Positions 818 through 49,221 of a stretch of DNA of 49,442 bases are shown one piece after another. The translations under genes were made by a program, and so were the position numbers. Location of the stretch: NCBI GenBank assembly GCA_946610035.1, contig CAMOCC010000012.1, forward strand, positions 1 through 49,442. Reading direction: 5' to 3'. This DNA comes from an uncultured Verrucomicrobiota bacterium. Lineage in GTDB: Bacteria; Verrucomicrobiota; Kiritimatiellia; RFP12; UBA1067. Under the pieces are notes generated by a model that saw nothing but the letters and a program-made list of their open reading frames with translations, was not told the DNA's origin and did no database searches. The number at the start of each line of letters is the position of its first letter. Position 1 is the first letter of the stretch.

Positions 818-957
818 ACCAATCTCAAACCGAGAACTGCAAATGAAAGGAACTACAATCAGTCACTAACCGGTACATAGGCGGGCAGCCTCCTTCGCCC
901 TGTGGGGCTACGGAGGACGGGTCTGCCGCATAGACAATTTGCGCTGCAAAGCGGTCG

Positions 958-1092
958 CCGTAGGAAATGTAGAGAGTTTCGCGAAGGACGACACTTAGCA
1001 GAGAAAGTGCATAAAGCGCTTCCTCTCTTTGTGTTTCCTTCAAGGCAATCTCTACAGCCTCCTACGGAACACGAAGAGAGGTTTTCTTTTTT
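958..1092 (+). promoter_or_regulatory. Candidate transcription attenuator in the adhesin leader
   Basis: Two competing structures can be drawn. The first is a long hairpin: 958-965 pairs with 1060-1067, 968-975 with 1049-1056, 983-988 with 1036-1041, and 991-994 with 1031-1034. The second is a terminator: 1022-1038 pairs with 1066-1081 and is followed by a T-rich run. Bases 1031-1038 and 1066-1067 belong to both, so forming one disrupts the other. The element ends about 46 nt before the start of the giant secreted protein. I recognise no known riboswitch or T-box signature. An inserted inverted-repeat element is the main alternative. The remainder of the gap (818-957) holds no gene that I can support. 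Confidence 0.5.
1022..1092 (+). terminator. Rho-independent terminator upstream of the adhesin
   Basis: An imperfect stem of about 15 pairs is formed by CCTCTCTTTGTGTTTCC (1022-1038) and GGAACACGAAGAGAGG (1066-1081). It is followed at once by TTTTCTTTTTT (1082-1092). It lies over 200 nt beyond the hepT stop and under 50 nt before the next start codon, so it may serve as a conditional terminator for the downstream gene rather than as the simple end of the toxin operon. Confidence 0.6.
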
Positions 1093-1138
1093 CGTTCCGA
1101 TTGCGAGCAGTAGAACAATCGACAGAAAAGGAACGAAA

Positions 1139-7100: not shown

Positions 7101-10100
7101 TCTGGACTGCGGCGGAAGTAATGAACGCTCCGGAGAGGTTCTTCGATCTTCGCGCAGATGTCCCATGGACTCGCGACTTCGCCGTTTCGCACGATGGCGT
7201 TGCGTCATTGCGCAGCGGCGCGATAGGGAACGATGAATCTACCGCGTTTTCCACCATCGTGTACGGCCCCGGCACGGCATCGTTCTGGTGGAAGGTGACT
7301 AGCGAAATCTTCAAGAACCGCAAGATCGACTATCTATCGTTCCAGGTCGATGGAACGGAGGCTGCCTGGATCGGCGGCGAAAAGGATTGGACGCAATACA
7401 GCGCGAATGTTTCCGGCGATGGTGCGCATACGCTCTCGTGGATATACTCCAAGGACTCCGAGGGAAGCGCGGGTGACGATGCCGGATGGGTGGACGAGTT
7501 CGTCTGGACGCCAGCCGTCTCCGCGTACATAATGGTTGACGCGGGCGACGTTGGCAAGGTGGCTGTCGATCGCGCTTGGCTGGAAGAGAAGTTTCCGGGC
7601 GCCGATCCTTCTGCTTCCGCCGCTGGCCTTGCCGCAAACGGGGAGCCTGTCTGGCAGGCGTACGTCGCAGGCTACGATCCGAACGACCCGAACGCCGACT
7701 TCCGCGCCACGATTCGCATCGTGAATGGTGTTCCCGTTGTCGAGCCGGATCCCGATCTCGGCGACTCGCGCACGTATGTCATCGAGGGCAAGCCAACGCT
7801 TAAAGACGACTGGAGCGAACCAGACGCCGGCAGCCGCTTCTTCCGCATTCGCGTGCTCACGCCTGAAGTTTCCGGTGGCGGCGGCAATGTGTCCGCTTCG
7901 CTCGTGGCGCCAATCGGCGTCACGGCCACAAGAGACCGTGAAGATGGTGTGCTTGTCGAGTGGCAGGCTGTGTCCGGCGCGACATCCTACGAATTGTGGA
8001 AAGGCGAATCGGGTGCGCCGGATCCATCGTCGCTGGTTGGCACGGGTGCGGAAACAAGCCGTCTCGATTCAAAAGCAGCGTCCGGCATTCAAAGCCGGTA
8101 TTGGGTAAGGGCGATAGGGTCTTCGTCCTCCAGTGCCCTCTCTGCACCAGTGGAGGGCATGAAACGCCTTTCCGTTCCGCAGAATCTAAAAGCCATCAGC
8201 AGCGGCGATCCGATGGTTCTTTCGTGGGATGCCGTGATCGGTGCGACTTCATATGAAGTCTTGCGTGCCCAGATCGATGACATATCCAACGCCGAAAAGT
8301 TAGGCGAAACAACCGCGACGTCCTATAGCGATGATTCGCTTTCTCGCGGATTGAAGTATTGGTATTGGGTAAAGCCAATGAATGGAGATACAGAAGGAAG
8401 CGCCTCCACGTCTGCCTCAGGTTGGCGGTTGTTGGAGAAGCCTACAGGAGTGACGGCTTCGCAAGGCACAGAGGCAGCTGGAGTGCGCATTACATGGAAC
8501 GCCGTAGATGGTGCTATGTCGTACAACGTGCTGCGCTCTACTAACGCGAATGATTACACTAAGATCGGAGCAACAGCCACGACTTCATTTCTTGATCCAA
8601 ATCCTGGCATAAGTGGCATTTGGTTCTATGTTGTAGAGGCCGTCGGCAGAGATGTCGGAGCGATTGGTTGCAGCGCGTACGCCAGTGGATATCAAGGCAT
8701 TTATTCTCCGTCTGAAGTTTCTGCCACGCAAGGCGAAGATTTTAGCGCAGTCACAATCACCTGGTCTGCTGTCGATGGAGCAAGCCGATATTCCGTCTGG
8801 CGTAATACATCGTCATCCAGTTCTTCGGCAACGTGTATCAATAGTTATCAAACTGGAACTTCCTATCGCGATACCACGGCATCTGGCGGAACAAACTACT
8901 ACTACTGGGTGAAGTCTCACACGAGCAGAGGTGCTGTGTCGGATTTCAGCGCAAGGGCGCTTGGCTACAATGCAGAAATCGCTTCAATTGTGATAAACGG
9001 TGTTTCTACGCTTTACGGTGTTGGCGCGTCCGGCTGTTATGGCGCAATGGCAAAGACGCAAAGCGGGAAGACGTTGCCATTGCCGACGAGCGCGACATGG
9101 GAACTTGTCACTGTAGGCCGCCTAAATAAGGTGTCTACACCATCTGGGTTTGCCAATGCCGCCATACTTTATAATGACAAATCTGCCGCCACATTTGCAG
9201 TCACTAACGCGACCATCGGCATCGTTAATCCAACCATTAGGGTCTCTTGTACTTGGAATGGTGCAACAAAGTCGGCGACTAAGACAATTGCTTACAAGGC
9301 AGCAAGTTCGTCCGCGCAGTACTCAAATTACATAGTAGGAACTAACGGGTTTGTTGTGCTCGGGTCATATTCAGGAACGTCGACATCGGTCTCGGTGCCG
9401 ACTACATTCAACGGCGGCACGGTCAAGGGTCTGAATGGAACGTTTAACAACACCGTCGTTGTATCCGTGACAATCCCGGCAAACATCGCGGTTATCTCCG
9501 GGGACACATTCGCGAGTTGCACTTCGCTCTCGTCAATCACGGTCAATTCGTCCAATCCAAGTTTCTGTAGTTCCAACGGCATCTTGTTCAACAAGAACAT
9601 GACGACGTTATTGCGATATCCACCGGCTAAAACAGGAGCATCTTACGCCATGCCAGATTCTGTGACATCGCTTGGCGGCAATTCGCTGAGAAATTTGGCG
9701 TACTTGTCATCGCTTTATGTCCCTGCGCGTGTGCCGTCATTTCCGTTTCTTGGCACAACTTCGTTGAGCCAAATATACTTCTTTGGAAATAAGCCTTCTA
9801 CCCCATCTAACATTCAAGGAATAGGAACGTCGAGCGGTACGGTCTATTATCTACAAGGAACTGCTAACTGGGGTGATAGATTCGGAGCTGGCATTCTTTC
9901 TTCGGCTGTGCCTGGTATTCCTACGGCTTTGTGGTCGAATCCGGTGAAATCGCTTGCCATTTCTGGAGTCGGTTCAATCACATCGGGAGGTGGGGCATCA
10001 TTCACAGCCAAAGCGACGTTCCAGTCAGGGCATGCGTACACATATGTCGGAAGCCCACTGGCTTGGTCGATAACATCCGGCTTGGATTACGCATCGATAT

Positions 10101-10222
10101 CGAGTGCAGGCGTGCTTACCGCCAAGTCCGTGACATCTCCGCAGACAATTACGATCAAGGCAACGGCAGCGATGGGCGGCGGAACTGCTACGGCAACGAA
10201 AACAATTACCATTACTCCGTAA
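1139..10222 (+). CDS. Giant secreted caspase-like peptidase/adhesin with InlB, Fn3 and LRR modules
   Basis: The start at 1139 is chosen because AAAGGA (1127-1132) precedes it and a signal peptide follows, with likely cleavage after A28 (AVQA). The 3027-residue protein is a mosaic. Residues 283-520 form a caspase-fold C13/C11-like peptidase with His396 in TSHG and Cys454 in ETCYSGG. BACON-like segments lie near 600-715 and 1083-1174. InlB/Flg_new B-repeats lie at 718-893 and 1176-1697. A CxxC module of zinc-ribbon type lies at 895-976. A Fn3 domain lies at 981-1081 and four more at 2256-2611. A domain appears twice (1702-1831 and 1991-2125), with a chitobiase-C-like segment between. BspA-like leucine-rich repeats lie near 2728-2898, and an Ig-like domain ends the protein. 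No LPXTG or autotransporter barrel was seen. It is probably a surface adhesin or protein-degrading effector; the substrate is unknown. Both ends are visibly less GC-rich than neighbouring genes. Confidence 0.85.
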   Translation: MKMSGVIKLICVLAAAVASAVVPVAVQAADSAAWLDAMCGSSPLLLRKVNCLRRLDSNDVHGGWSSQDAGKVVVKCTGIELSGLFTWENAYSATDGERVDTCYFTADDGTVNHFSVLTCRSTLSPYAWTSDSDKAEDDFDPIEFVRSRFNASEMSSVAWIDRLVSAADVEIRELGEVVAVPWEKYYFFLIDDQPGANWSHPCRYVFLSEDGSSFAVLYKQRPPRIFSVADKSRIYLKSTRTQDESEKTDAIKQLNAVAAKVYSYANSLKDENDLSNSTGDRSRSHFVLICGGADPESNGIRFWCDTAMLYSTLTLKYGVSKDNIHVYMSDGTSSDADANLGSDVAPVLVSSPLDLDGDGYPDIDGAAIKSEVRSCFNSLKNSLSSADQLFVFVTSHGSPDGSAGPDNYGCLAWLYAADGGSYGSDGERAYFWDEDLADWTSGMVCPVAFAIETCYSGGFIDDITQTPKRVIATACNHYESSYGYGAGGMWDKGVVGSTGAVNCWAVEFITALRGYQPKSIMYYAYPWENGDEKNADSSGDGIVSFNEARTYAYKNDKARCTLLSHTSTCGKDNEVEHPQYAESTGGLGDNFFVLKQSTSIDPRWSFSLTDSIVGADGGCILEKTFGADGGTYDVSITCDGSYMGSDAIFLPNRSVSNIWPDWFNDEILLTSSSNVTKWRLKVAPNNSTSNRYVYVTVSYKELSQRVLIYQEKQSQSVATYTVTYKPGSYASGSTYTATKTNNVALALRNATYTRTGYTHAAWSTSSAGTSRNYGFGESYTANAVLTLYPYWTANTYTVAYSLDGGSHGTTHPSSATYDTAFCVSAPSKSGYTFTGWTVTSGLNTSTAKWGTTSSASTSLTSSSTKCANGATGNVYFKNLRATSGGVTLSAQWQCNHATTTIRNVRAATCTEAGYTGDTVCTTCGATISSGSTIPALGHQEGEGVVTKEPTTTEEGVMTYSCIRCGAVMRTELIPRIAIQVGKPVIIASGTANYVQLSWDPADNAVGYAVWRATSASGTKQRVQIPVGTENTISYTDGVGTYVQRCVAHDTTATPGVDYWYWIAATNGTVSTFSDAVSDYRHVNLSLSKSKSSFDSDGGTDSPTVTANTSWTATKTKDWLTLTSASASGGGMLSFSVTANTDASPRSDTITVTAGGSTAHPVSAPFYVTQAAYVVPTFSVTFNANGGTGTMDAQTFQEGERKNLTSCAFTKSGFHFVGWAENPDATEPEWEDGESFAPADDVTMYAVWRSNKHAVEFHANGGTGTMKAQVFTWNVAKEISVCAFTREHYNFAGWALSENGPMVYADQQQIQIDEDLDLWAVWEPKTYAITFNGNGATGGAMAAQSFTFGVAQNLRANAYQKTGHDFKGWATEQGGAVAYADGASFSATADMTLYAVWEAKIYTITFNGNGATGGSMAVQSFTYGVAQNLRANVFQKTGHDFKGWATAQGGTVIYADGGSFSATKDMTLYAVWEAKTYTITFNGNGATGGSMAAQSFTYGVAQNLRVNVFQKAGHDFKGWATEQGGIVAYADGASFSAAKDMTLYAVWEAKTYTITFNGNGATGGAMAAQSFTYGVAQNLRANAYQKTGHDFKGWATEQGGIVAYADGTSFSATKDMTFYAVWEAKTYTIRFLANDGTDSVLGTQQFTYGVETRLETPYPVRDGYTLAGWSESANGGVAYVGDETITFDNDVDLYAVWSAGLGGALAGTESLVWRTGGDAPWTGVALDGEDVARSGTVPDSANSWVATDVTGPGRLTFRWKVSSESYRDYQIDYLSFFVDGEEMNWIGGEVDWEAQTFDLDEGTHTLTWTYFKDEVDSDGEDCAWLDSVFFLHRSGVSFVASDAISGTLPAAIEGWENDEVALPSADGLRRAKHEFAGWTDGTTTYSPGDIYVLPSAAATLSAVWTAKIVATPEIVTPTHYISEMSSASIVCATPGATIRYALDGSDPLGANGIIYTGPFAVSGCPTILAAATLDDWFDSAVATATVSRVWTAAEVMNAPERFFDLRADVPWTRDFAVSHDGVASLRSGAIGNDESTAFSTIVYGPGTASFWWKVTSEIFKNRKIDYLSFQVDGTEAAWIGGEKDWTQYSANVSGDGAHTLSWIYSKDSEGSAGDDAGWVDEFVWTPAVSAYIMVDAGDVGKVAVDRAWLEEKFPGADPSASAAGLAANGEPVWQAYVAGYDPNDPNADFRATIRIVNGVPVVEPDPDLGDSRTYVIEGKPTLKDDWSEPDAGSRFFRIRVLTPEVSGGGGNVSASLVAPIGVTATRDREDGVLVEWQAVSGATSYELWKGESGAPDPSSLVGTGAETSRLDSKAASGIQSRYWVRAIGSSSSSALSAPVEGMKRLSVPQNLKAISSGDPMVLSWDAVIGATSYEVLRAQIDDISNAEKLGETTATSYSDDSLSRGLKYWYWVKPMNGDTEGSASTSASGWRLLEKPTGVTASQGTEAAGVRITWNAVDGAMSYNVLRSTNANDYTKIGATATTSFLDPNPGISGIWFYVVEAVGRDVGAIGCSAYASGYQGIYSPSEVSATQGEDFSAVTITWSAVDGASRYSVWRNTSSSSSSATCINSYQTGTSYRDTTASGGTNYYYWVKSHTSRGAVSDFSARALGYNAEIASIVINGVSTLYGVGASGCYGAMAKTQSGKTLPLPTSATWELVTVGRLNKVSTPSGFANAAILYNDKSAATFAVTNATIGIVNPTIRVSCTWNGATKSATKTIAYKAASSSAQYSNYIVGTNGFVVLGSYSGTSTSVSVPTTFNGGTVKGLNGTFNNTVVVSVTIPANIAVISGDTFASCTSLSSITVNSSNPSFCSSNGILFNKNMTTLLRYPPAKTGASYAMPDSVTSLGGNSLRNLAYLSSLYVPARVPSFPFLGTTSLSQIYFFGNKPSTPSNIQGIGTSSGTVYYLQGTANWGDRFGAGILSSAVPGIPTALWSNPVKSLAISGVGSITSGGGASFTAKATFQSGHAYTYVGSPLAWSITSGLDYASISSAGVLTAKSVTSPQTITIKATAAMGGGTATATKTITITP
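5108..6007 (+). repeat. Four tandem 225-bp InlB B-repeat units inside the adhesin gene
   Basis: Four consecutive units of exactly 225 bp (75 codons) start near 5108, 5333, 5558 and 5783. Each encodes a nearly identical repeat with the landmarks ITFNGNGATGG, AQSFT.GVAQNLR, GHDFKGWAT and LYAVWEA. More diverged units flank them on both sides. The near identity at DNA level points to recent amplification or ongoing recombination between units. Confidence 0.9.
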
Positions 10223-21346: not shown

Positions 21347-22600
21347 TTATTTATTATATTGAAGCGGGACGTTGGCGAAGGCGGCTCCGCCTTTGCCGTC
21401 GAAAACGTATGCGTAAAGTCTGTATATGCCTGGTTTAGGCAGGCTTACCTTCACTTTGGGCGTGCCGCGTCCTTCGACAACGACGCCCTTGTGACCCTTG
21501 GGCGCAGCTCCTCCGAGGCCAGTGTCGCCGTAGTAGCCGTTCTCGTCTATGAGCGCCCAGCGCCACACGAGCGGATCGCCGTCGGGATCGGTCGCTGAAG
21601 TCTCGACTGTCACGAGGTCGTTTGTGGACGCGACTTCAAGCCTGTCCGCATTCAGCGGCTTTATCTCCGGCACGCGGTTGGCGCTTTTCGCCACGCCCCA
21701 TTTGTCCTGCACGATCTGCGCGCCTGCGAGCATGTCGCCGTTGGGGAGAAGGAGCCCGTGCCATGTCGGCGTGCCTTCGACCTTCGTGCCCCAGATGAAG
21801 GCGTATCCGCCGAGGCACCACTTTCCGCGCAAGGGCGCGATGGACGTGTCGTATATCTTCCCTATCCAGTCCGCCTTGTCCGTCGAAGTCGGCTCGAACG
21901 GCGCGCCGAAGCCGGTGCGGCCAGTTTCGTTGGCGCCGAAGAGCCCGTATTCCGTGAGCACGTACGGAATCGCGCCCATCTTCGCCCAGCGTTCGCCTAT
22001 TGAGTGCGCGCCGCCGTAGCTGTTGATGCCGAGGAAGTCTAGGTTGGGGCAAAGCCTTGTTATCATCGCGGCCTTTTCGGGCCAGACTTCCGCGACGACG
22101 GTGCAGACCGGGTGGTTGGGGTCGATTTTCTTCACCTCGGCCGCTGCCCTGTCGATGAACCGCCACAGCTCCTCCTGGTGCGGATTGTTGAGCTCCATCT
22201 CGTTCCCGAGAGCCCAGCAGAGGAGCGCGTCGTGATCCTTGAGTTCCGCAACGGTCCTGAGGATGCTCTTGAGCGTCGAGTCGAGGGCTTTCGTGTTCGT
22301 GTAGTCGAATCCGTGCTCCGCATGTCCAAGCCAGAAGCCGACCATCACGGTGACTCCGCACTTTTCGGCGCGATCAAGCTCCTTCGCCGCATCGTCTGCG
22401 CCCCATGTGCGCACTGAGTTCCCTCCTGCAGCGGCGAACTTTTCGAGATCCCTGACTCCGCCGGCTCCGCGGATGAAATACTCCTCGCCGTTGCGCGTCA
22501 TGCGCCAGGAGCCTTTCGAGCCTTCGATCCTGACGACCGAGGCGGAGGCCGCAACTGCCGCCAAACATGTGGCAAATAATACTGCTGGTGTTGCTTTCAT
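21347..22600 (-). CDS. Secreted clan GH-A glycoside hydrolase with cadherin-like tail
   Basis: A 417-residue protein with a signal peptide (MKATPAVLFATCLAAVAASA). A TIM barrel carries the acid/base Glu134 in CWALGNEME and the nucleophile Glu217 in VLTEYGL, as in GH2 and GH5 barrels. No N-terminal GH2 sandwich is present. The C-terminal 100 residues contain TSATDPDGDPLVWRW, typical of a cadherin/PKD-like module. The family number is uncertain and so is the substrate. The start has no Shine-Dalgarno sequence: the -10 box ends eight bases before the ATG. It opens the operon that continues through the beta-helix protein, the rhamnosidase, the kinase and the response regulator. Confidence 0.8.
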   Translation of the reverse strand: MKATPAVLFATCLAAVAASASVVRIEGSKGSWRMTRNGEEYFIRGAGGVRDLEKFAAAGGNSVRTWGADDAAKELDRAEKCGVTVMVGFWLGHAEHGFDYTNTKALDSTLKSILRTVAELKDHDALLCWALGNEMELNNPHQEELWRFIDRAAAEVKKIDPNHPVCTVVAEVWPEKAAMITRLCPNLDFLGINSYGGAHSIGERWAKMGAIPYVLTEYGLFGANETGRTGFGAPFEPTSTDKADWIGKIYDTSIAPLRGKWCLGGYAFIWGTKVEGTPTWHGLLLPNGDMLAGAQIVQDKWGVAKSANRVPEIKPLNADRLEVASTNDLVTVETSATDPDGDPLVWRWALIDENGYYGDTGLGGAAPKGHKGVVVEGRGTPKVKVSLPKPGIYRLYAYVFDGKGGAAFANVPLQYNK

Positions 22601-22608
22601 ATGTCTTA

Positions 22609-22636
22609 ATTATAGCAAATTTGGGTGAATTGGCAA
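22609..22636 (-). promoter_or_regulatory. Promoter of the GH-A/GH78/two-component operon
   Basis: Read on the minus strand, TTGCCA (22636-22631) and TATAAT (22614-22609) are 16 bp apart. The -10 box ends eight bases before the ATG at 22600, which predicts a leaderless transcript. A GTGAATTGGCAAT sequence (22625-22637, plus strand) overlaps the -35 box. Confidence 0.6.
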
Positions 22637-22639
22637 TAC

Positions 22640-22656
22640 TACACGAAAGAGTGAAA
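22640..22656 (-). promoter_or_regulatory. Shared 17-bp motif upstream of the GH-A operon
   Basis: TACACGAAAGAGTGAAA (plus strand) is found identically at 25343-25359, upstream of the GH3 gene. Both copies lie just beyond the -35 region of minus-strand promoters, in the same orientation relative to the gene. This is a candidate binding site for a common regulator, possibly the response regulator at the end of the operon. Confidence 0.5.
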
Positions 22657-25342: not shown

Positions 25343-25359
25343 TACACGAAAGAGTGAAA
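25343..25359 (-). promoter_or_regulatory. Shared 17-bp motif upstream of GH3
   Basis: An exact copy of the motif at 22640-22656. It overlaps GTGAAATTGCAATGGG (25354-25369, plus strand), which resembles the XylR-locus half-sites (14 of 16 matches to 42326-42341). Confidence 0.5.
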
Positions 25360-25704
25360 TTGCAATGGGTGCAACGTACCTCTTCATTCTTCTCCCTCGC
25401 GCGCTCTTGAAGGCCACTACCGACTAACGACTAGCCCCAAATCGCACGATTTGACGCGCCTCTGACGAGGTTTTCACCTGCTTCGCAGATAGCCGCAAGG
25501 CAGTTGAAATGTTCGCACCACCAGCATAGGCCGCGGGAGGGGCCCTGTGAAGGAGGATTGTGGAATTGTGGAATAGCGGAAATGTGAAATTGCACCTCTT
25601 CCATCCTCCCCATTCCCCACTCCGACACGAAAACGCCCCTTCGGGCAGCACGAAATATAGAGACTACTTTAGACCAAGTGCGGCAAGTACCTTGCTCTCA
25701 GGGG

Positions 25705-39477: not shown

Positions 39478-40710
39478 TTAACCGCATCCGGCATGCGACT
39501 GGAGGCGTTTCCATTCGCCCGTCGTCATCCCCGTCACGCGCTTGAAGAAGTGGGCGAGCTGCGCGGCGGAGGGGAAGTCGCAGCGCGCGGCGATCTGGGA
39601 GGCGGAGAGGTCCGTCTCGGCGAGCAGCCGCTTGATTTCGGCTAGGCGGGCGGCGCGGATTTCCCGTCCGACCGACGTGTCGCGCACCTGGCGGAAGCGA
39701 AGGTCGAGGAGCTGGCGCGAGACGCCGAGGTGCCGCGCCACGTCGTCGGCGGAAAGCGCGTCCGACGCGCGGGCGCGTATGAAGTCCAGGGCGCGGTCGA
39801 CGAGATGGGCCGCGGGCGGGATGCGGCGCGTCGAGTTGCGCTCGACGACGGCGTCCGGCTGCTGGCGGATGAAGAGGGGACGCTTCGGCGCGGCCCGTCC
39901 CTCCATAAGGCGGTCGAGGACGCGGGCGGATTCGTAGCCGAGCTCCTCGTGGTTGACGGCGACGCTGGAGAGGTTGGGCGAGGCGAAGCGGCACAGCACC
40001 TCGTCGTTGTCCGTTCCAAGGACGGCTACTTGCGCGGGAATGGCTAGGCCGGCGGCTTCGCACGCCTCCGCGACGGCGAGCGCCGTCACGTCGTAGACGC
40101 ACCAGACGGCGGCGGGCTTGGGGAGGCCATTGAGGAAGGCGCCGAGCGCGGCGGAATCGAGCGGACGCTCGTCCGAGGTGCAGGTGAAGGCGCGGAGGTC
40201 CCACTTGCGCTCGCGGGCGATGGCGCGGAAGGCGCGTTCGCGCTCGTAGGACCAGCGCCGCTCGGCGCGGTCGGAGACGAACGCGACGGACTTGAAGCCG
40301 CCGCGATATGCCAGGTGGTCCGCCGCCGCCGCTGCGATGGAGGCGTTGTCGACATCCGTGAAGGCGGTGCGGCGGATCGCGTTCCCTGCGACCGGGAATT
40401 CCTCGGGAAGGACGTTGAACGAGACGGGAAGGTCCGAGACGAGCAGCTCCCTGAAGCATCCCGACGCCTCGGGAAGGCCCGCAACGACGCCGTCCACGCC
40501 CGCGCTCTTCAGTTCGTCCACGAATGTCGCCGTAATGCGCTCGAAGTCGGCGACGATCTTCAGCTTCCAGCGACGCCCGCCGTTGACATAGCGGAGGACG
40601 CCCCTGAGGGAGCTTCGCCCCGAGGCGTCGTCGAGGTTCAGCAGGACGGCGACGGTCTTGGGCTTCGGGAGTCGCCTGACGGAGGAGTATTTGCTGTTTG
40701 TCTTCTTCAT
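39478..40710 (-). CDS. XylR-type regulator (LacI-like sensor plus AraC-type HTH)
   Basis: A 410-residue transcription regulator. Residues from about 20 to 290 form a periplasmic-binding-protein fold (KTVAVLLNLDDASGRSSLRGVLRY, VWCVYDVTALAVAEACEAAGL, VAVLGTDNDEVLC, SSVAVNHEELGYESARVLDRLM), the sugar sensor of LacI/XylR proteins. The last 110 residues are an AraC DNA-binding domain (LSADDVARHLGVSRQLLDLRFRQV, then AEIKRLLAETDLSASQIAARCDFPSAAQLAHFFKRVTGMTTGEWKR). In this family, sugar binding lets the dimer bind direct repeats and activate promoters. It is divergent from the mannan locus, and paired repeats lie in the space between. Its own -10 box ends eight bases before the ATG, and one operator half overlaps its -35 region, suggesting autoregulation. 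Confidence 0.88.
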   Translation of the reverse strand: MKKTNSKYSSVRRLPKPKTVAVLLNLDDASGRSSLRGVLRYVNGGRRWKLKIVADFERITATFVDELKSAGVDGVVAGLPEASGCFRELLVSDLPVSFNVLPEEFPVAGNAIRRTAFTDVDNASIAAAAADHLAYRGGFKSVAFVSDRAERRWSYERERAFRAIARERKWDLRAFTCTSDERPLDSAALGAFLNGLPKPAAVWCVYDVTALAVAEACEAAGLAIPAQVAVLGTDNDEVLCRFASPNLSSVAVNHEELGYESARVLDRLMEGRAAPKRPLFIRQQPDAVVERNSTRRIPPAAHLVDRALDFIRARASDALSADDVARHLGVSRQLLDLRFRQVRDTSVGREIRAARLAEIKRLLAETDLSASQIAARCDFPSAAQLAHFFKRVTGMTTGEWKRLQSHAGCG

Positions 40711-40718
40711 CGCCGATG

Positions 40719-40724
40719 ATTATA
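40719..40724 (-). promoter_or_regulatory. -10 box of the XylR-type gene (leaderless layout)
   Basis: TATAAT on the minus strand ends eight bases before the ATG at 40710. A -35 candidate TTTCCA (40747-40742) overlaps the first operator half-site. Confidence 0.55.
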
Positions 40725-40741
40725 TCATATTTCGGACTTGG

Positions 40742-40779
40742 TGGAAATGGCAATGAGGTGTTAGGCGAAAAGTCAATGG
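40742..40779 (+). promoter_or_regulatory. Paired direct repeats, operator copy 1
   Basis: The half-sites TGGAAATGGCAATGAG (40742-40757) and GCGAAAAGTCAATGGA (40765-40780) share GAAAnGnCAAT and are spaced 23 bp apart, about two helical turns. They end six bases before a -35 box. The same arrangement occurs at 42303-42341. AraC/XylR proteins characteristically bind such tandem half-sites beside -35 boxes. Confidence 0.6.
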
Positions 40780-40785
40780 AATGTA

Positions 40786-40815
40786 TTGACTGCGGCAATG
40801 TGTTTCATGTAGAAT
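40786..40815 (+). promoter_or_regulatory. Promoter of the broken secreted gene
   Basis: TTGACT (40786-40791), an 18-bp spacer and TAGAAT (40810-40815). It aligns without gaps to the GH27 promoter 1561 bp downstream, from the operator through the -10 box. Confidence 0.7.
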
Positions 40816-40848
40816 AGCGGCGTAAACACCACATAAAGGAGTTCTTGG

Positions 40849-41107
40849 ATGAATATGCCCACGCTTGCAAAAAGGACGTTCGCCGTTGGATTGGCCTTCG
40901 CCTGCGGCACGGCCCTCGCGGAGGCGGCGAAACTCGCCGGCACAACGGGTGGTTCCGCCATCGACGGACGGCTACACGCGCGCCCGTTCGGTGTATGTCG
41001 CGAAGCAGGCGGGCGACGAGAGCGCGTTCATCGGCAACGTCGCCGAGGTAGAGGTGTGGGGTTGCCGCGCAGACTATGCGAGGCCGCTGATGATCGCAGT
41101 CCGGTGA
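40849..41107 (+). pseudogene. Broken secreted-protein gene under the XylR-type promoter
   Basis: The gene starts well: AAAGGAG lies seven bases before the ATG, and the product begins with a signal peptide (MNMPTLAKRTFAVGLAFACGTALAEAAKLAG). After about 36 codons the frame becomes meaningless Arg-rich sequence. A second frame, from about 40969, gives a protein-like end (DGYTRARSVYVAKQAGDES, then AFIGNVAEVEVWG) stopping at 41107. This tail resembles the C-terminal sugar-binding domains of larger secreted enzymes. The simplest reading is an internal deletion plus frameshift that removed the catalytic part. The long open frame continuing into the GH26 gene is accidental. Confidence 0.65.
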
Positions 41108-41114
41108 CGGATTC

Positions 41115-41144
41115 TTGCATCAAGGCGTTTGTTTGTGGTATAAT
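41115..41144 (+). promoter_or_regulatory. Promoter of GH26 (leaderless layout)
   Basis: TTGCAT (41115-41120), an 18-bp spacer, and TATAAT (41139-41144) preceded by TGTGG. The -10 box ends seven bases before the ATG at 41152. No operator repeat like those at 40742 or 42303 is seen here. Confidence 0.65.
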
Positions 41145-41151
41145 TCCGAAC

Positions 41152-42291
41152 ATGAAAGCTCGTTCTTATTCAGCGTTGGTTGCGGGACTCCTCCTAGCTT
41201 CGCCGCTCGTCGCGGCGGAGAAGTCGCCTGAGGCTCAGAGTCTCCTTGCGCGCCTGAAGGAGACGGAGTCGTCGGGACGCATCCTCTCCGGCTGCGCCGC
41301 GCAGGTGAACTGGAACACGAACGAGGCCGCGTGGGTCTATCGGCACACGGGCAAGTGGCCTGTCGTCAACACCTTCGACTTCGGACACGACGTGTACAGC
41401 GCGAAGGGCGGATGGATCGACTATTCCGATCCGGGGCCGGCGCTTGGATGGGCCAAGGCGGGCGGCATAGTCTCCATAATATGGCATGCCGTCCAGCGCA
41501 CGAACGACGGGAAGGGATGGACCTTCTACGCCGGCAAGGAGCCCGGGCAGACGGATTTCAGGCCGGAATGCATCTTCGACCCCGGAAGCACCGAGGGCTC
41601 GAACTACATCGCGCGGCTCGACCAGGTGGCGCGATGGCTCGTCCCGCTGCGCGACGCGGGCGTGCCGGTCCTGTGGCGTCCGTACCACGAGGCGCAGGGC
41701 AACTGGCGGGATGAGTTCCCCGGCGTCGACTGGCATCATGCGTGGTTCTGGTGGGGATCGTCCGGTCCCGAGACGCTCAAGCGGCTCTGGCGGCAGATGT
41801 ACGATAAATTCACAAATGAATACGGACTCACAAATCTCGTCTGGGTCTGGACGGGGAGCGACATAGAAGGGGACTCCCTCAAGTGGTACCCCGGCGACGG
41901 GTATGTGGACGTGGTTGCCTTCGACGCCTATCATCTCGATGCGGACGGAGTGAAGAAGGTTGCCGACATGCTCGCTGCGAAGTATCCCGGCAAGGTCAAG
42001 GTTCTCGCCGAGTGCGGAGACGTCCCGACGCCGGGCGAATACCTCGACAAGGGCGCGCGTTTCGCCCTCTTCTCGGCGTGGTACGATCCATGCAGGACGG
42101 TTGATCCCGCTTCGGAGGTCTACGCGTCTGGTGCGCACGAGCACTTCCCGGCGACGAAATGGAAGGCTGCCTTCGCCGACCCGCGCGTCCTCTCCCGTGA
42201 AACGCATTTTCCGACACCGCTGTTTCCGACACCGCCGTTGCTGAAATCAGGGGTAAGATTCAAGGCGGAGACGTGGCCAGGAAGCCTGTAG
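41152..42291 (+). CDS. Secreted GH26 endo-beta-mannanase
   Basis: The start at 41152 is chosen over the longer frame from 40849 because a promoter lies directly upstream and a signal peptide follows (MKARSYSALVAGLLLASPLVAAE). The 379-residue enzyme is a GH26 TIM barrel: NTFDFGHDVY, GIVSIIWHAV, acid/base E180 in WRPYHEAQGNW, WFWWG, LVWVWTG, and nucleophile E287 in VLAECGDVP. GH26 enzymes mostly cut internal beta-1,4-mannosidic bonds. The last 25 residues (HFPTPLFPTPPLL and after) look unlike the family. It is followed within 120 nt by the alpha-galactosidase promoter. With the next two genes it forms a galactomannan-degrading set. Confidence 0.88.
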   Translation: MKARSYSALVAGLLLASPLVAAEKSPEAQSLLARLKETESSGRILSGCAAQVNWNTNEAAWVYRHTGKWPVVNTFDFGHDVYSAKGGWIDYSDPGPALGWAKAGGIVSIIWHAVQRTNDGKGWTFYAGKEPGQTDFRPECIFDPGSTEGSNYIARLDQVARWLVPLRDAGVPVLWRPYHEAQGNWRDEFPGVDWHHAWFWWGSSGPETLKRLWRQMYDKFTNEYGLTNLVWVWTGSDIEGDSLKWYPGDGYVDVVAFDAYHLDADGVKKVADMLAAKYPGKVKVLAECGDVPTPGEYLDKGARFALFSAWYDPCRTVDPASEVYASGAHEHFPATKWKAAFADPRVLSRETHFPTPLFPTPPLLKSGVRFKAETWPGSL

Positions 42292-42302
42292 ATTGGCATT
42301 GG

Positions 42303-42341
42303 CTGAAAGGACAATCGGGTTTTAGGTGAAAGGGCAATGGG
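42303..42341 (+). promoter_or_regulatory. Paired direct repeats, operator copy 2
   Basis: The half-sites CTGAAAGGACAATCGG (42303-42318) and GTGAAAGGGCAATGGG (42326-42341) match at 13 of 16 positions and are spaced 23 bp apart. The second ends five bases before the -35 box. This is the clearer of the two operator copies and the best candidate site for the XylR-type regulator. Confidence 0.65.
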
Positions 42342-42346
42342 ATGAG

Positions 42347-42376
42347 TTGACAAGGCTCTTCTCTTTGGTGTAAAAT
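42347..42376 (+). promoter_or_regulatory. Promoter of the GH27/GH2 mannan genes
   Basis: A consensus -35 TTGACA (42347-42352), an 18-bp spacer and TAAAAT (42371-42376). Transcription would give a leader of about 27 nt with the Shine-Dalgarno sequence AAAGGA (42395-42400). Confidence 0.75.
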
Positions 42377-42409
42377 AGCGTCGTCGAAAATCTTAAAGGA
42401 ATGACAGGC

Positions 42410-44509
42410 ATGAATAAGACTCTGATGGTGACGGTGGCCATGGCCGGCCTCTTTGCGGGCGCGGCGGAGACAGTCCGCCTGGACTCGCTCCCCCTGGCGG
42501 AGATGACTGCCGGCTGGGGCGGGCCCAGGGCGGGGCGGAGCGTTGACGGCAAGCCGCTCTCGCTGCGCGGCAGGCGCTACGAGCGCGGCGTTGGAACGCA
42601 TGCGCTTTCGTCCTTCAAGGTCCATGCGGACGGGAAGGCTCTCGCCTTCGACGCCGTGGTCGGCGTTGATGACGACGTCGGCGAGGCGAAGGGCAGCGTC
42701 GTGTTCTTCGTGAAGGCGGACGGCGCGACTGCGGCGAAGTCGCCCAAGCTGACGTCCGCCTCCGAGCCGTATGCGATGCACGCCGATTTGAAGGGTGCGA
42801 AGGTAGTCGAGCTCTTCGTGTGCGATGCGAGGGACGGCGACAACTACGACCACGCCGACTGGTGCGACGCGTACTTCACCGTCGAGGACGGCTCGAAGGT
42901 CGTGCCGCTGGGCGCGATGGCCGAGCAGCTCGGCGTTCTTACGCCAAAGGCCGGCGACGAGCCGCGCATAAACGGTCCGTCCGTCTACGGCGTCAGGCCG
43001 TCCCATCCCGTCATCTACCGGCTGCCTGTCTCGGGCGCGCGTCCGATGAAGTTCGCGGCGGAGTCGCTGCCGCAGGGCCTTCGGTTCGACGCGGAGAAGG
43101 GCGTCGTCACGGGCGCGGTCGCCGAGAGGGGCGACTACGCGGTCCGCTTCACCGCGGCGAACGCAAAGGGGACGGCGGCGCGGACCGTCGTCTTCAAGGT
43201 CGGCGACAAGATCGCGCTCACGCCGCCGATGGGGTGGAACAGCTGGAACTGCTTCGCTGGGCGCGTCACGGACAGGGACATACGCGCGGCGGCGGACGCG
43301 TTCGAGAAGTCGGGGCTCGTCGACCACGGATGGAGCTACGTCAACATCGACGACTTCTGGCAGAACGCCGTCGGCAAGACGGACGACGAGACGCTCAAGG
43401 GTCCGCAGCGCAATGCGGACGGCACGATTAATCCGAACGTGCGGTTCCCGGACATGAAGGGCCTCGCCGACTACGTCCACGCGAAGGGGCTCAGGATCGG
43501 CCTCTACTCCTCTCCGGGTCCGTGGACCTGCGGCGGCTGCGAAGGCAGCTGGGGGCACGAGTGGCAGGATGCGAAGAGCTACGCCGACTGGGGATACGAC
43601 TACCTCAAGTACGACCTCTGCGGCTACCGCAGCATCGAGGGCATCAACCCCGATGCGGACGACCTCGCCTGGAACTCGCTTCCATACCGCCTCATGGGCG
43701 AGGCGCTTGAGGCGCAGGGCCGCGACATCGTCTACTCGCTCTGCCAGTACGGATGGGGACACGTCTCAAGCTGGGGCGCGAACGTTGGCGGCAACAGCTG
43801 GCGCACGACGGGCGACATCACGGACACCTGGCAGTCGATGAGCTCAATCCTCGATGCCCAGGCGGAGCTGTGGCCCTACGCCGGACCAGGTGCGTGGAAC
43901 GATCCCGACATGCTTGTCATAGGTCCGCTCGGCTGGGGGAACATCCACCCGACGCGCCTCACGCCGAACGAACAGTACACCCACATGTCCTTCTGGTGCA
44001 TCCTCTGCTCGCCGCTTCTCATAGGCTGCGACCTCACGCAGATAGACGACTTCTCGATGTCGCTCCTTACGAACGACGAGGTGCTGGAGACGAACCAGGA
44101 TCCGCTCGGCGCCGCCGCCGCGCGCATATACTCCTCTTCCGCCGGCCACGAAATCTGGGCGAAGCCGATGTCCGACGGATCGCTCGTCTTCGCGCTCTAC
44201 AACAAGGGCTTCGAGAACGCGACGATAGACGTCGATTTCGCCGCGTACGGACTCGAGGGCGAGTGGAGGGTCCGCGACCTCTGGCGTCAGGCGGATGTCG
44301 GACTCTGCAAGGGACGCGTCTCCGCGAAGGTCCTGCCGCATGCGACGACGCTCTATCGCCTCTTCCCGACGGAGGGCGCGCGCCTCGCCGGGGGAGTGCG
44401 CGACATCCGCGACCAGGCTACCTACCGCTACTTCGAGAAGTTCCGTCCCGTCGGCAAGCCGGGACTCGCATCCGGCTGGCGCAAGCCGTGCGCCGACTGC
44501 CCGAGGTGA
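42410..44509 (+). CDS. Secreted GH27 alpha-galactosidase with NPCBM domain
   Basis: The ATG at 42410 is nine bases after AAAGGA; the ATG at 42401 would leave no spacing. The product has 699 residues, with a signal peptide ending near GAAET. Residues about 20-165 are an NPCBM carbohydrate-binding domain (RRYERGVGTHALSSF, DAYFTVEDGSK). A putative Ig-like domain follows, and the catalytic domain starts at LTPPMGWNSWNCF. The nucleophile is D402 in YLKYDLCGY; the acid/base is probably D469 in SWRTTGDITDTW; WNDPDMLVIG follows. A beta-sandwich ends the protein. It removes alpha-1,6-galactose side chains, fitting galactomannan breakdown with GH26 and the beta-mannosidase. The last 25 residues resemble no domain that I know. 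Confidence 0.9.
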   Translation: MNKTLMVTVAMAGLFAGAAETVRLDSLPLAEMTAGWGGPRAGRSVDGKPLSLRGRRYERGVGTHALSSFKVHADGKALAFDAVVGVDDDVGEAKGSVVFFVKADGATAAKSPKLTSASEPYAMHADLKGAKVVELFVCDARDGDNYDHADWCDAYFTVEDGSKVVPLGAMAEQLGVLTPKAGDEPRINGPSVYGVRPSHPVIYRLPVSGARPMKFAAESLPQGLRFDAEKGVVTGAVAERGDYAVRFTAANAKGTAARTVVFKVGDKIALTPPMGWNSWNCFAGRVTDRDIRAAADAFEKSGLVDHGWSYVNIDDFWQNAVGKTDDETLKGPQRNADGTINPNVRFPDMKGLADYVHAKGLRIGLYSSPGPWTCGGCEGSWGHEWQDAKSYADWGYDYLKYDLCGYRSIEGINPDADDLAWNSLPYRLMGEALEAQGRDIVYSLCQYGWGHVSSWGANVGGNSWRTTGDITDTWQSMSSILDAQAELWPYAGPGAWNDPDMLVIGPLGWGNIHPTRLTPNEQYTHMSFWCILCSPLLIGCDLTQIDDFSMSLLTNDEVLETNQDPLGAAAARIYSSSAGHEIWAKPMSDGSLVFALYNKGFENATIDVDFAAYGLEGEWRVRDLWRQADVGLCKGRVSAKVLPHATTLYRLFPTEGARLAGGVRDIRDQATYRYFEKFRPVGKPGLASGWRKPCADCPR

Positions 44510-44530: not shown

Positions 44531-47029
44531 ATGACATCTATCGTGCTTGCGGCGGCCATCAGCCTGGCCGGTGAGTGGACTTTGACCGGAACGGACGAGG
44601 CAGGCGCGGCCGTGGAGTGTCCGTGCAGGGTTCCCGGCGATGTGCAGTCAGCGCTGTTCGATGCGGGGCGCATGGCCGATCCGTACATGGGGCGCAACGA
44701 ACTGAAGACGCAGTGGGTCGGCAGGCACGACTGGACGCTGCGCCGCACCTTCGAGGTGGACGACGAGACGCTGGCGAAGAAGGCCGTCGTCCTTCGCCTT
44801 GAGGATGTGGACACCTTTGCGACGATCAGGCTCAACGGACACGAGCTCGGGCGGACGGACAACAGGTTCCGCCGCTGGGAATACGACGTGAAGCCGTTCC
44901 TCAAGAAGGGCGTGAACGAGTTGACGGGCGAGTTCGAATCGGCGGAGCGGATATCGAACGAGATCGCGTCCGGACTCGACCGCCGCTATCCCATGTCGAA
45001 CGTTCCGTGGGCGGTGAACATTTCGCTGGTCCGCAAGCCGGCGTGCCACGGAGGCTGGGACTGGGGCCCCGCCCAGATGGTCGAGGGCTTTTGCGGAACC
45101 GTCGAGCTCATCGCGTACGACGACTTCAAGGTCGACTATGTCTACACGCATCAGGATTTCAACGACGACTATTCGCACTGCGACCTCACCGTCTTCGTCG
45201 AGGCGACGGACGCGGAGGGATGCGCCTTCGTGTCGACGAACCGCATTGCGATCGCAAAGCCGGAGCTTTGGTGGCCGAACGGCGCGTTCGGCAACGACGG
45301 GGCGGCGAAAGCGCGATGCGGACGGATGTTCGACTACGAGGTGGTGGTCCGGGGCCGCAGGATAAAGGGCCGCACGGGTCTCCGCAAGGTGGAGGTCCTC
45401 AACACGCCCGACGTGGACGAAAACGGCAAACCGGGGGCGCGGATGGCGTTTCGCGTCAACGGGCGCGAAATCTTCATGAAGGGCGCGAACTGGATTCCGT
45501 GCGACGCATTCGAGAACCGCCAGACCCCGGAGCGCTACCGCGATCTCCTGGAAGGCGCGGTCGCGGCCAACATGAACATGATTCGCGTGTGGGGCGGCGG
45601 CGCGTATGAAAAGGAAGTGTTCTACGACCTCTGCGACGAACTTGGAATCCTCCTGTGGCAAGACATGATGTTCGCCTGCGCGGCATATCCGGGCGACGAG
45701 GCATTCCTCGCCTCGGTCGGGGAGGAGCTGCGCCACCAGTTGAAGCGCATACGGCGCCACCCGTCCCTCGCCATGTGGTGCGGAGACAACGAATGCGTCG
45801 GCGCGCTTGGGTGGTTCGAGGAGAGCAGGAAGGACACCGCGTTCTACAAGAAGGCGCTGGAGGCGCGTCACGCAGTGTCCGGCGCGGCTGTCGCGGCGTG
45901 GGATCCGGACAGGATGTTCTGGCCCAGCTCCCCGTGCGCCGGACCGGGCAACTACGCCAACAACTGGAAGAACGACTCGCAGGGAGACATGCACAACTGG
46001 ACCGTCTGGCACGACAACGCGAGCTTCGACGCCTACTACAGGTTCCGTCCGCGCTTCTGCAGCGAGTTCGGCTACCAGAGCTTCCCGTCGCGCGAGGTCG
46101 CGGAGACGTTCTGCGATCCGGCGCGGCTCAATCCGACGGCACCGGACTTCGAGTGGCACCAGAAGAACCCGGGCGGCAACCAGCGCATCCTAGAGACGAT
46201 GGCCCGCTACTTCAGGTTCCCGCAGGGGACGGACGCGATGCTGTACCTCTCGCAGGTCCAGCAGGCGATTGCAATGAAGACCGCGGTGGAGGGATGGCGC
46301 GCGCAGCGCCCACGCTGCATGGGGACGCTCTACTGGCAGCTGAACGACATGTGGCCGGTCTCGAGCTGGAGCTCGCTCGAATACGGCGGAAAGTGGAAGC
46401 ACCTCCACTACCAGGCGAAGCGCTTCTACGCGCCGCTTGCGGTCGTCGGCGTCCCGGCGGCGGACGGCGCGCCCGTGGCGACGGCTGTCGACGGCGGGGG
46501 GAATCCGGTGGCGGCCGCAGGACGGACGGCGTGCGCTGCGGTGAAGGTCCTCAACGACCTGCCGCATCCCGTCGATGCGGAGGTGACGGCGGAGTTCATG
46601 GATTTCGACGGAAAGGTCCTCAAGACGTTGAAGCGGCGCGTATCGCTTGCGCCGGACTCTGTGACGGACTGGGGCGGGGGTGTCCTTTCCGAATCGGACG
46701 TGGAGGGTCCGTCCTTCCTCGTCCTGACGCTCAGGAGCGACTACGGTGTGTTCCGCAACGAGTGGCTCTTCGACTACTACAAGCGCTACGAGCTTGCGGA
46801 CGCGAATGTCACCGCGACATTCGACGGGTTGTCCGTGACGCTCGCCGCCGACAAGCCTGCGTTCTTCGTCTGGGCGAATGAGAAGGGCGTCAATGGCGAG
46901 TTCTCCGACAATTCGTTCACGCTCCTCCCGGGCGAACCCGTGACTCTGACATTCAGCCCGAAGTCGCCGCTCTCGTCCGAGGACTTCCGCGAGCGCTTCT
47001 CGCTCACCCACCTGCGCAGGACATACTGA
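44531..47029 (+). CDS. GH2 beta-mannosidase
   Basis: An 832-residue GH2 enzyme of beta-mannosidase type. The N-terminal sandwich starts at once (SLAGEWTLTGTDEAG, CRVPGDVQSALFDAGRMADPYMGRNE). GGWDWGP, MIRVWGGGAYE and YDLCDELGILLWQDMMFACAAYP are beta-mannosidase landmarks. The acid/base is E421 in MWCGDNECV and the nucleophile E512 in FCSEFGYQSFPS. It would release mannose from the ends of mannooligosaccharides made by GH26. AAGGAGG sits seven bases before the ATG, only 21 bases after the GH27 stop, so the two are one operon. The first 13 residues are hydrophobic but too short for a clear signal peptide, so the enzyme may stay in the cell. Confidence 0.9.
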   Translation: MTSIVLAAAISLAGEWTLTGTDEAGAAVECPCRVPGDVQSALFDAGRMADPYMGRNELKTQWVGRHDWTLRRTFEVDDETLAKKAVVLRLEDVDTFATIRLNGHELGRTDNRFRRWEYDVKPFLKKGVNELTGEFESAERISNEIASGLDRRYPMSNVPWAVNISLVRKPACHGGWDWGPAQMVEGFCGTVELIAYDDFKVDYVYTHQDFNDDYSHCDLTVFVEATDAEGCAFVSTNRIAIAKPELWWPNGAFGNDGAAKARCGRMFDYEVVVRGRRIKGRTGLRKVEVLNTPDVDENGKPGARMAFRVNGREIFMKGANWIPCDAFENRQTPERYRDLLEGAVAANMNMIRVWGGGAYEKEVFYDLCDELGILLWQDMMFACAAYPGDEAFLASVGEELRHQLKRIRRHPSLAMWCGDNECVGALGWFEESRKDTAFYKKALEARHAVSGAAVAAWDPDRMFWPSSPCAGPGNYANNWKNDSQGDMHNWTVWHDNASFDAYYRFRPRFCSEFGYQSFPSREVAETFCDPARLNPTAPDFEWHQKNPGGNQRILETMARYFRFPQGTDAMLYLSQVQQAIAMKTAVEGWRAQRPRCMGTLYWQLNDMWPVSSWSSLEYGGKWKHLHYQAKRFYAPLAVVGVPAADGAPVATAVDGGGNPVAAAGRTACAAVKVLNDLPHPVDAEVTAEFMDFDGKVLKTLKRRVSLAPDSVTDWGGGVLSESDVEGPSFLVLTLRSDYGVFRNEWLFDYYKRYELADANVTATFDGLSVTLAADKPAFFVWANEKGVNGEFSDNSFTLLPGEPVTLTFSPKSPLSSEDFRERFSLTHLRRTY

Positions 47030-47157: not shown

Positions 47158-49221
47158 ATGAAAACTACATGTCTTATCTCATGCCTGGCGTTTTTGGCGA
47201 CCGCCTGGGCTGCCAATCCCGACGTTGGCGCCGTGGACAACGCACACGGCGCGCGCATCGTCCGCGAGGGCGTGAAGTACCGCGGCGTTTTCATCAACGA
47301 CGAGGACTGGGGGCTCAGGCCTTGGGCGGTCCGGCACTTCGGCAAGGAGGAGCAGATCGGCGTACGCGCCTACGAAGAGGTCTTTAAGATCATGAAGGCG
47401 GACGGACTCAACCTCCTGTGGCCGGCGATGCACGAAGGCGGATACGAATTTTCGGAACGCCCCGGGAACCTCGACCTCGCGACGAAGAAAGGCATCACCG
47501 TCGGAACGAGCCATTGCGAACCGATGCTCCGCAACAACTGCTACATTCCGAAACGGGACCAGAAGCTCTGGAGCTGGCTGAACCACCGCGATTTCGTCGC
47601 GGACTACTGGCGCGAAGGCGTGAAGCGCGGCGAAGGGCACAACGTCCTCTGGACGATCGGCATGCGCGGAATCCACGACGGGCGGATGACGGACGGGAAG
47701 ACGACGGAGGAGAAGGTCGCCGTCCTCGAAGACGTCTTCAAGTTTCAGACTTCGCTGCTTGCGTCCGATGCGCCGAAGCTGTTCGTCCCGTACAAGGAGG
47801 TGCTGCCCCTGTACAATGCGGGGCTCAAGGTCCCCGGTGGCACGACGATCATGTGGGTGAACGACAACTTCGGCTACATCCGACGTCTGGGAGGTCCGCA
47901 GGCGGAAGGCTACGGCGGCGGAATCTACTGGCACGCCTCGTATTGGGGCCGTCCGCACGGATACATCCACCTTTGCACCACCCCGCCCGCATTCATGTGG
48001 TACGAGCTTTGCGCCAAGGCGTGGAACAACGGCGTCCGCGACGTATGGATGCTAAACGCGGGCGACGTCTTCCAGGCCGAGGCGCTCCTGTTCTGCTACG
48101 GACAGTTCGCGGCGAACCCCGACGCCTTCGGACCCGACGCGCAGCGTCGTGCGCTCTCCCGCTGGTGCATTCAGACATTCTCGTCGTTCAAAAACGAAAT
48201 GCTGCACGAAAGGATCGTCGGGCATCTCGAAGACTACTACAACCTCGGATTCATCCGCAAGCCAGAATTCATGTGCATTCAGTGGACGACCAACCTGCCA
48301 GCATCCGTGAAGGCGCACCTCGTGAATCGCTATCGCGCACATCTGGTGCGCGATGCCGAGATCGAGTCCGAACTCGCGAGGATCTCACCCGAATCGGTGG
48401 ATGCGTACTTCCGCACTGTCGGCTTCCAGTCCCGCTTCCTCGCCAATGCCGGACTCGTCCACCTCGAAGGAAGGACGAAGGAGGAGGCGCGCGCCGTCCT
48501 GGATCCGCTTTATGTTCGCTGGGACGCGCTCGACGGCGGGAAGTGGTCCGGCTTCTGGGTCGACACCATCGAGGAGCGTACCGGACAGTATCAGCCAACG
48601 CCTCACAACCGATGGTCGTCGCAGATGCAATGGCCGTGGAACGAGCCGCCTGATCCGCAGGCCAGGGACCGGCACGGTGTTTCGCGCGACGACTACATTG
48701 CGACGGCGTACCGGGCGGACGTTCCCGAGCCGACGTGGCTCGAGCCGGTCGCGAACGAAGCGGCGAATGGCGGAGCGTGGACGCGCGTCGGCGGACTTGG
48801 CACTTCCGGCAGTGCGCATGCGCTTCTTCCCGTCAAGCCAGGCGTCGGTGAAGGAGCGACGATGGAGTTTTCTTTGACGGGACTTAGGACTGCGGACTTC
48901 GGACGGAAGAAATCGCCTGGGGTCAGAAGTCCGAAGTCCGAAGTCCTCGTCCTCCAGTTCCTGCCGGACTTTGCGCTTTGGCCTGGCCTCGGACTCGGTG
49001 TCGAGGTCGCTTTCGACGGAGAGAAGCCGCAGTATGTGCCGGTACCGAAGAGCGATTCGAACATCGGCGAGAGGGATCCGGTCCGAAACGCCGCAGTGCA
49101 GGACAACTTCATTCGGGTCGAAGTTTCGATTCCCGACGGGGCGAAGCATGTCGAGATTCGCGCGGTCGACCCCGGCGTCGTCGTCGACCGCGTCGGAGTG
49201 CGAACCCGTTCCGATCGTTGA
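47158..49221 (+). CDS. Secreted GH115 xylan alpha-glucuronidase
   Basis: A 687-residue protein with a signal peptide (MKTTCLISCLAFLATAWAANPD). GH115 landmarks are RGVFINDEDWGLRPWA, LLWPAMHEGGYEF, GITVGTSHCEPMLRNN, LWTIGMRGIHDGRM, LKVPGGTTIMWVNDNFGYIRRLG and GGGIYWHASYWGRPHGYIHL. The family removes 4-O-methyl-glucuronic acid from xylan. It is shorter than many members (about 800-1000 residues). The C-terminal part contains an unusual in-frame inverted repeat (48886-48947) that encodes LRTADFGRKKSPGVRSPKSEV. It has its own promoter and lies 128 nt after the beta-mannosidase, in the same direction, so xylan and mannan side chains may be treated by one locus. Confidence 0.87.
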   Translation: MKTTCLISCLAFLATAWAANPDVGAVDNAHGARIVREGVKYRGVFINDEDWGLRPWAVRHFGKEEQIGVRAYEEVFKIMKADGLNLLWPAMHEGGYEFSERPGNLDLATKKGITVGTSHCEPMLRNNCYIPKRDQKLWSWLNHRDFVADYWREGVKRGEGHNVLWTIGMRGIHDGRMTDGKTTEEKVAVLEDVFKFQTSLLASDAPKLFVPYKEVLPLYNAGLKVPGGTTIMWVNDNFGYIRRLGGPQAEGYGGGIYWHASYWGRPHGYIHLCTTPPAFMWYELCAKAWNNGVRDVWMLNAGDVFQAEALLFCYGQFAANPDAFGPDAQRRALSRWCIQTFSSFKNEMLHERIVGHLEDYYNLGFIRKPEFMCIQWTTNLPASVKAHLVNRYRAHLVRDAEIESELARISPESVDAYFRTVGFQSRFLANAGLVHLEGRTKEEARAVLDPLYVRWDALDGGKWSGFWVDTIEERTGQYQPTPHNRWSSQMQWPWNEPPDPQARDRHGVSRDDYIATAYRADVPEPTWLEPVANEAANGGAWTRVGGLGTSGSAHALLPVKPGVGEGATMEFSLTGLRTADFGRKKSPGVRSPKSEVLVLQFLPDFALWPGLGLGVEVAFDGEKPQYVPVPKSDSNIGERDPVRNAAVQDNFIRVEVSIPDGAKHVEIRAVDPGVVVDRVGVRTRSDR
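48886..48947 (+). repeat. Inverted repeat inserted in the GH115 coding region
   Basis: Arm AGGACTGCGGACTTCGGAC (48886-48904) is complementary to 48929-48947 at 18 of 19 positions, with a 24-base loop. The insert keeps the reading frame. It encodes a Lys/Arg-rich stretch unlike the surrounding domain. Confidence 0.75.

Follow-up and report, generated by a model that had tools for sequence, protein, structure and literature searches.

A XylR-type regulator with 23-bp direct-repeat operators, a putative local activator of two glycoside hydrolase promoters in a Kiritimatiellae genome

The window analysed here, a 49,442-bp stretch of DNA from an uncultured gut or rumen Verrucomicrobiota bacterium of the Kiritimatiellia, carries a XylR-type regulator gene and, close to it, two operators, A and B, in which a 17-bp half-site is directly repeated upstream of a promoter. 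We regard it as very probable that this regulator is a direct-repeat activator at A and B, with a local regulon of two promoters. The evidence comprises the sites, their uniqueness, the gene context, and the spacing, promoter geometry and helix–box covariation in the paralog family. Most of what is known of Kiritimatiellae, which degrade polysaccharides, comes from metagenome-assembled genomes, and a literature search of limited reach yielded no paper on transcriptional regulation in them.

Regulator and operators

The regulator and operator features are as follows.

39478-40710, minus strand: XylR-type regulator of 410 aa, N-terminal LacI-type ligand-binding domain and C-terminal AraC HTH (Pfam)
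40719-40747, minus strand: predicted own promoter of the regulator (from sequence), -10 TATAAT at 40719-40724, 17-bp spacer, -35 TTTCCA at 40742-40747
40738-40754, plus strand: half-site A1, TTGGTGGAAATGGCAAT, exact match to TTRGnnGAAAnGnCAAT
40761-40777, plus strand: half-site A2, TTAGGCGAAAAGTCAAT, exact match to the same pattern
40786-40815, plus strand: promoter A, -35 TTGACT at 40786-40791, 18-bp spacer, -10 TAGAAT at 40810-40815
42299-42315, plus strand: half-site B1, TTGGCTGAAAGGACAAT, exact match to the same pattern
42322-42338, plus strand: half-site B2, TTAGGTGAAAGGGCAAT, exact match to the same pattern
42347-42376, plus strand: promoter B, -35 TTGACA at 42347-42352, 18-bp spacer, -10 TAAAAT at 42371-42376

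Domain analysis revealed the XylR-type fusion of a LacI-type sensor (Peripla_BP_3, residues 130-294, 3e-30) with an AraC HTH (HTH_18, residues 325-402, 6e-17) in the product of 39478-40710. Among solved structures, this protein matches E. coli XylR (4fe7) best, in an alignment over the full length (E 3e-34) with 26% identity over 397 aligned positions.

The two operator–promoter regions, 40738-40815 and 42299-42376, are in gap-free register 1561 bp apart, as the first-pass annotation had noted, with 53 of 78 positions identical. The half-sites it had described as GAAAnGnCAAT are present at 40744-40754, 40767-40777, 42305-42315 and 42328-42338, 23 bp apart in each pair. Comparison with paralogs sets the half-site at 17 bp, with TTRGnn preceding GAAA, such that the second copy follows a 6-bp linker and starts 23 bp after the first. 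The distance from the last half-site to the -35, previously given as 5-6 bp, is 8 bp in both operators. On the opposite strand, A1 lies over the regulator's own -35 (TTTCCA-17-TATAAT), in agreement with the earlier proposal.

The gap-free alignment of A and B, together with a similarity that extends into the first codons (ATGAATA), would also fit a recent duplication of a promoter segment whose repeats have no regulatory role. Yet the half-sites (27/34 identical) and the -35 and -10 boxes (10/12) are kept, whereas the -35/-10 spacer (8/18) and the upstream flank (13/48, chance level) are near background, so that conservation lies where function would be expected. Moreover, each operator is in itself an internal 23-bp repeat, of a kind seen beside paralogs with different sequences. 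Duplication as the whole explanation is thus scarcely credible.

Uniqueness of the operators in the genome

In the 3.03-Mb draft genome, perfect copies of TTRGnnGAAAnGnCAAT number four, all of them in operators A and B. The exact GAAAnGnCAAT pair occurs twice, with no control match even at three mismatches, and a profile derived from the two 40-bp operators retrieves only those two. Searches with pairs (up to three mismatches), the 17-mer and the profile gave no further pair above chance-level matches at other CAZyme promoters, which refutes the wider regulon once suggested. The prediction of a local, galactomannan-type regulon of two promoters is well supported.

Extension of the regulon by single half-sites was rejected: 17-mers at up to two mismatches number 72 against 51 for a reversed-pattern control, which is uninterpretable. 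Exact 11-mers number 27 in the genome. A half-site at 22621 with one mismatch stands alone in a 63-bp gap, with a profile score of 4.3 bits, and was not accepted. Nor did the similar half-site reported before the GH3 gene (25354-25369) hold as a regulon member, being a single mismatched copy, GAAATTGCAAT, that points away from GH3 and belongs to another 17-bp motif. It overlaps, on the minus strand, the different exact 17-bp repeat TTTCACTCTTTCGTGTA, of which the genome holds two exact copies, at 22640-22656 and 25343-25359 (minus). Each copy is located 25 bp upstream of a TATAAT before genes that start at 22600 and 25303 on the minus strand, namely a GH2-like gene (21347-22600) and the GH3 gene. 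The TTTCACTCTTTCGTGTA pair probably serves another regulator as a second local operator.

A 23-bp spacing across paralogous regulators

No close ortholog of the regulator was found (best identity 36-41%; relatives in 156 of 192 genomes). A first operator scan of named genomes gave no match, and a profile search over 61 genus genomes gave only E values of 0.18 or worse outside the own genome. With no close ortholog, and with an exact operator that the other 60 genus genomes do not conserve, phylogenetic footprinting could not be applied directly; the architecture was therefore tested across paralogs. The family has about 15 near-complete copies in this genome and more than 100 candidates in some order-level relatives, and its named members are mainly from Kiritimatiellae, Lentisphaerae-labelled and Verrucomicrobia metagenome-assembled genomes, several of them from ruminant guts.

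Upstream DNA of 134 XylR-type genes from related genomes was fetched, and 126 loci entered a shift test, which excluded the gene of the window itself and four loci that had been selected by pattern. The test scores how similar the stretch lying 40-200 bp before residue 18 is to itself at shifts of 12-45. Strong enrichment was confined to 23 bp (mean z 1.37), a peak of some 15 standard errors if the loci were independent. Of the 126 loci, 35 scored highest at this shift; the corresponding counts in three control regions were 5/96, 3/129 and 3/119. The same peak emerged from the paralogs of the own genome, for which 20 loci were usable, some of them overlapping. Only some of the paralogs, roughly one quarter to one third, have a clear 23-bp repeat. 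Small samples from other PVC groups and other phyla showed no clear 23-bp peak, the preferred shifts being 24 in Verrucomicrobia/Opitutae and 20-21 in Planctomycetes.

An EM model of two equal 17-bp half-sites, started from a window-like consensus where the shift test had no such start, returned TTGnCnGAAAnGnCA for the paralogs, with 53 of its 60 best sites reading toward the divergent gene. Among ten spacings with the same start its likelihood was highest at 23, the 23-bp run having had more iterations. The paralog half-sites have TTG...AAA in common. Genes divergent from such paralogs encode GH127, GH78, GH10, a weak GH42 match and MFS transporters, as well as lectin-like and unassigned secreted proteins. 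Most regulators are accompanied by a single operator pair within roughly 10 kb, and the window's regulator by two; a second copy is usually absent and clear only in the window, with possible extra copies at loci L183 and L195. Some other candidate second copies coincided with part of the pair already identified and were disregarded.

In one relative genome, the pair pattern also matched a tandem array of a 23-bp unit, GAAACGGCAACAATTCAAGGAAC (G151:C274:1054-1133), and a similar unit occurs in another (G128:C221).

Promoter geometry

Among 39 good sites of the family, the best -10 starts 31-33 bp past half-site 2 in 19, where about 1.2 are expected; in both A and B it starts at 32 bp, the modal position. 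Members of the 30-33 class usually have a TTG-type -35 at 16-18 bp before the -10. Smaller groups have the -10 at 19-20 and 8-11 bp, nearer by about one and two turns of the helix, respectively. Tandem direct-repeat half-sites adjoining a -35 are found in the window and family-wide, and the AraC-type activator arrangement beside a XylR-type gene, as originally proposed, is supported by domains, homology and paralogs as a predicted mode of action.

The same repeats might instead serve a repressor that is released by its ligand, after the logic of LacI. The LacI-type ligand domain would suit such a repressor, as would the overlap of A1 with the regulator's own -35 and the paralog repeats located 8-11 bp from the -10, which would overlap the -35. 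However, the repeats of the window and of the modal class end 7-9 bp upstream of the -35, which is the position of an activator, and E. coli XylR at xylE activates from tandem repeats beside the RNA polymerase site (PMC6375646). We consider repression at these operators unlikely.

Covariation of recognition helices and half-site boxes

Variable half-site bases agree at 0.61 within a locus against 0.32 between loci (permutation p 0.0002), a difference that holds in 24 non-redundant loci; the repeats are thus locus-specific rather than copies of a shared consensus. The more alike two regulators are in the first recognition helix, the more alike is their box A (r 0.45; helix 2 gives 0.30), and the second helix is related in the same way to box B (r 0.38; helix 1 gives 0.14), with bootstrap support of 0.965 and 1.000 for the respective contrasts. 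Phylogeny accounts for part of these correlations: similarity in the ligand domain goes equally well with similarity of the whole half-site, and conditioning on ligand-domain similarity leaves partial correlations of 0.33 for HTH1 and box A and only 0.15 for HTH2 and box B.

Given the about 15 near-complete XylR-type proteins of this genome, another paralog might in principle bind A and B. But the operator adjoins the gene of the present regulator and overlaps its promoter, paralogs of the same genome are flanked by different half-sites (e.g. TTGTCC... at C34 and TTGCTCAAAATGTCAAA at C144), and the helix–box covariation favours local pairing. Binding by such a paralog is therefore quite improbable. 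The paralog spacing, the promoter geometry and the covariation support the reading of the present regulator as a direct-repeat activator.

For the expanded Kiritimatiellae XylR-type family at large, we incline to the view that a single rigid grammar applies, with two 17-bp half-sites, a distance of 23 bp and a fixed helical distance to the -10 of the divergent gene, in which helix 1 would read box A and helix 2 box B. Specificity would then be decodable, and most regulators would serve one or two neighbouring promoters.

Putative target genes and proposed mechanism

Operator A precedes the GH26 gene, and operator B precedes the GH27 and GH2 genes, followed by GH115.

40849-41151, plus strand: remnant of a secreted-protein gene with start and signal peptide retained, the rest frameshifted, open and in frame with GH26 (three-frame translations)
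41115-41144, plus strand: second promoter-like site, TTGCAT-18-TATAAT, 7 bp from the -10 to the GH26 ATG (sequence; putative function)
41152-42291, plus strand: GH26, mannanase family (Pfam PF02156, 2e-47)
42401-44509, plus strand: GH27 alpha-galactosidase with NPCBM domain (Pfam Melibiase_2, 4e-48)
44531-47029, plus strand: GH2, beta-mannosidase-like (Pfam Glyco_hydro_2_N2, Ig_mannosidase, Mannosidase_ig)
47158-49221, plus strand: GH115, 128 bp past GH2 (Pfam PF15979, 3e-81)

GH2, only 21 bp from GH27, is likely in the same operon; the membership of GH115 is uncertain. By the established functions of these families, GH26, GH27 and GH2 form a galactomannan set. The label XylR-type given by the first-pass annotation holds for the domain architecture only; the targets suggest galactomannan or manno-oligosaccharides rather than xylose, and no xylose catabolism gene is among the genes identified in the window, the neighbours being GH26, GH27, GH2 and GH115.

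From these features we infer regulator binding, activation, a ligand and autorepression, in the following putative model. A dimer of the regulator would bind operators A (40738-40777) and B (42299-42338), where a sigma70-type -35 follows 8 bp after the second half-site. Box A (TTRG..) of each half-site would be read by the first HTH and box B (..GnCAAT) by the second. A ligand, probably a product of mannan or galactomannan, would bind to the LacI-like domain, and the ligand-bound regulator would then recruit RNA polymerase to promoter A, into GH26, and to promoter B, for GH27-GH2 and perhaps GH115. Occupancy of A1 would cover the regulator's own -35 and so limit its expression. A counterpoint to this model is that promoter A meets the gene remnant before GH26. 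The remnant shares the GH26 frame, so that transcription from promoter A would now pass through it into GH26; since GH26 has its own promoter-like TTGCAT-18-TATAAT, A may not be its sole promoter.

The remnant (~300 bp) retains promoter A, a ribosome site and the signal peptide. Only 7-8 bp separate a TATAAT box from the ATG of GH26 (41115-41152), and likewise from that of the regulator (40710-40747), with no evident ribosome site at either start; leaderless transcripts of both genes are possible in this lineage.

Relation to known systems

The nearest known system is E. coli XylR, in which a LacI-type sensor is likewise followed by an AraC HTH and sites are likewise arranged in tandem beside the promoter; at xylE, activation works through two neighbouring sites adjacent to RNA polymerase (PMC6375646). 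In E. coli, the strongest direct repeats in front of xylA and xylE have a distance of 21 bp, whereas the distance is 23 bp in the window and its paralogs, i.e. the Kiritimatiellae variant has 2 bp more between half-sites. The targets also differ, being polysaccharide hydrolases here and xylose isomerase or transport for E. coli XylR. AraC at araI1-araI2 has a cupin-type sugar domain and 17-bp half-sites in a direct repeat that abuts the -35, with a 21-bp repeat distance. The 17-bp direct-repeat half-sites are alike in the present system, but the distance is 23 bp and the domain LacI-type. Judged from sequence, the operators of this family are a variant of the XylR/AraC direct-repeat operator that is specific to this lineage.

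In Caldicellulosiruptor, CAZyme clusters have local AraC- and LacI-family regulators beside glycoside hydrolase genes, with predicted motifs, and these regulators are assorted, some being global (PMC8579813); here, in contrast, a large paralog family has one operator grammar with locus-specific letters. What appears to be new is this putatively lineage-wide grammar, a 23-bp spacing rule beside many sister regulators. A common grammar with own letters for each paralog is a natural data set for the DNA recognition code of the AraC family, makes target promoters and likely substrates predictable from genome sequence alone, and offers insulated sugar-responsive switches.

Elsewhere in the window, positions 902-10222 hold an ORF of 3106 aa whose DNA is internally repetitive, with offsets of 225, 450 and 675 bp, corresponding to a very long repetitive protein.
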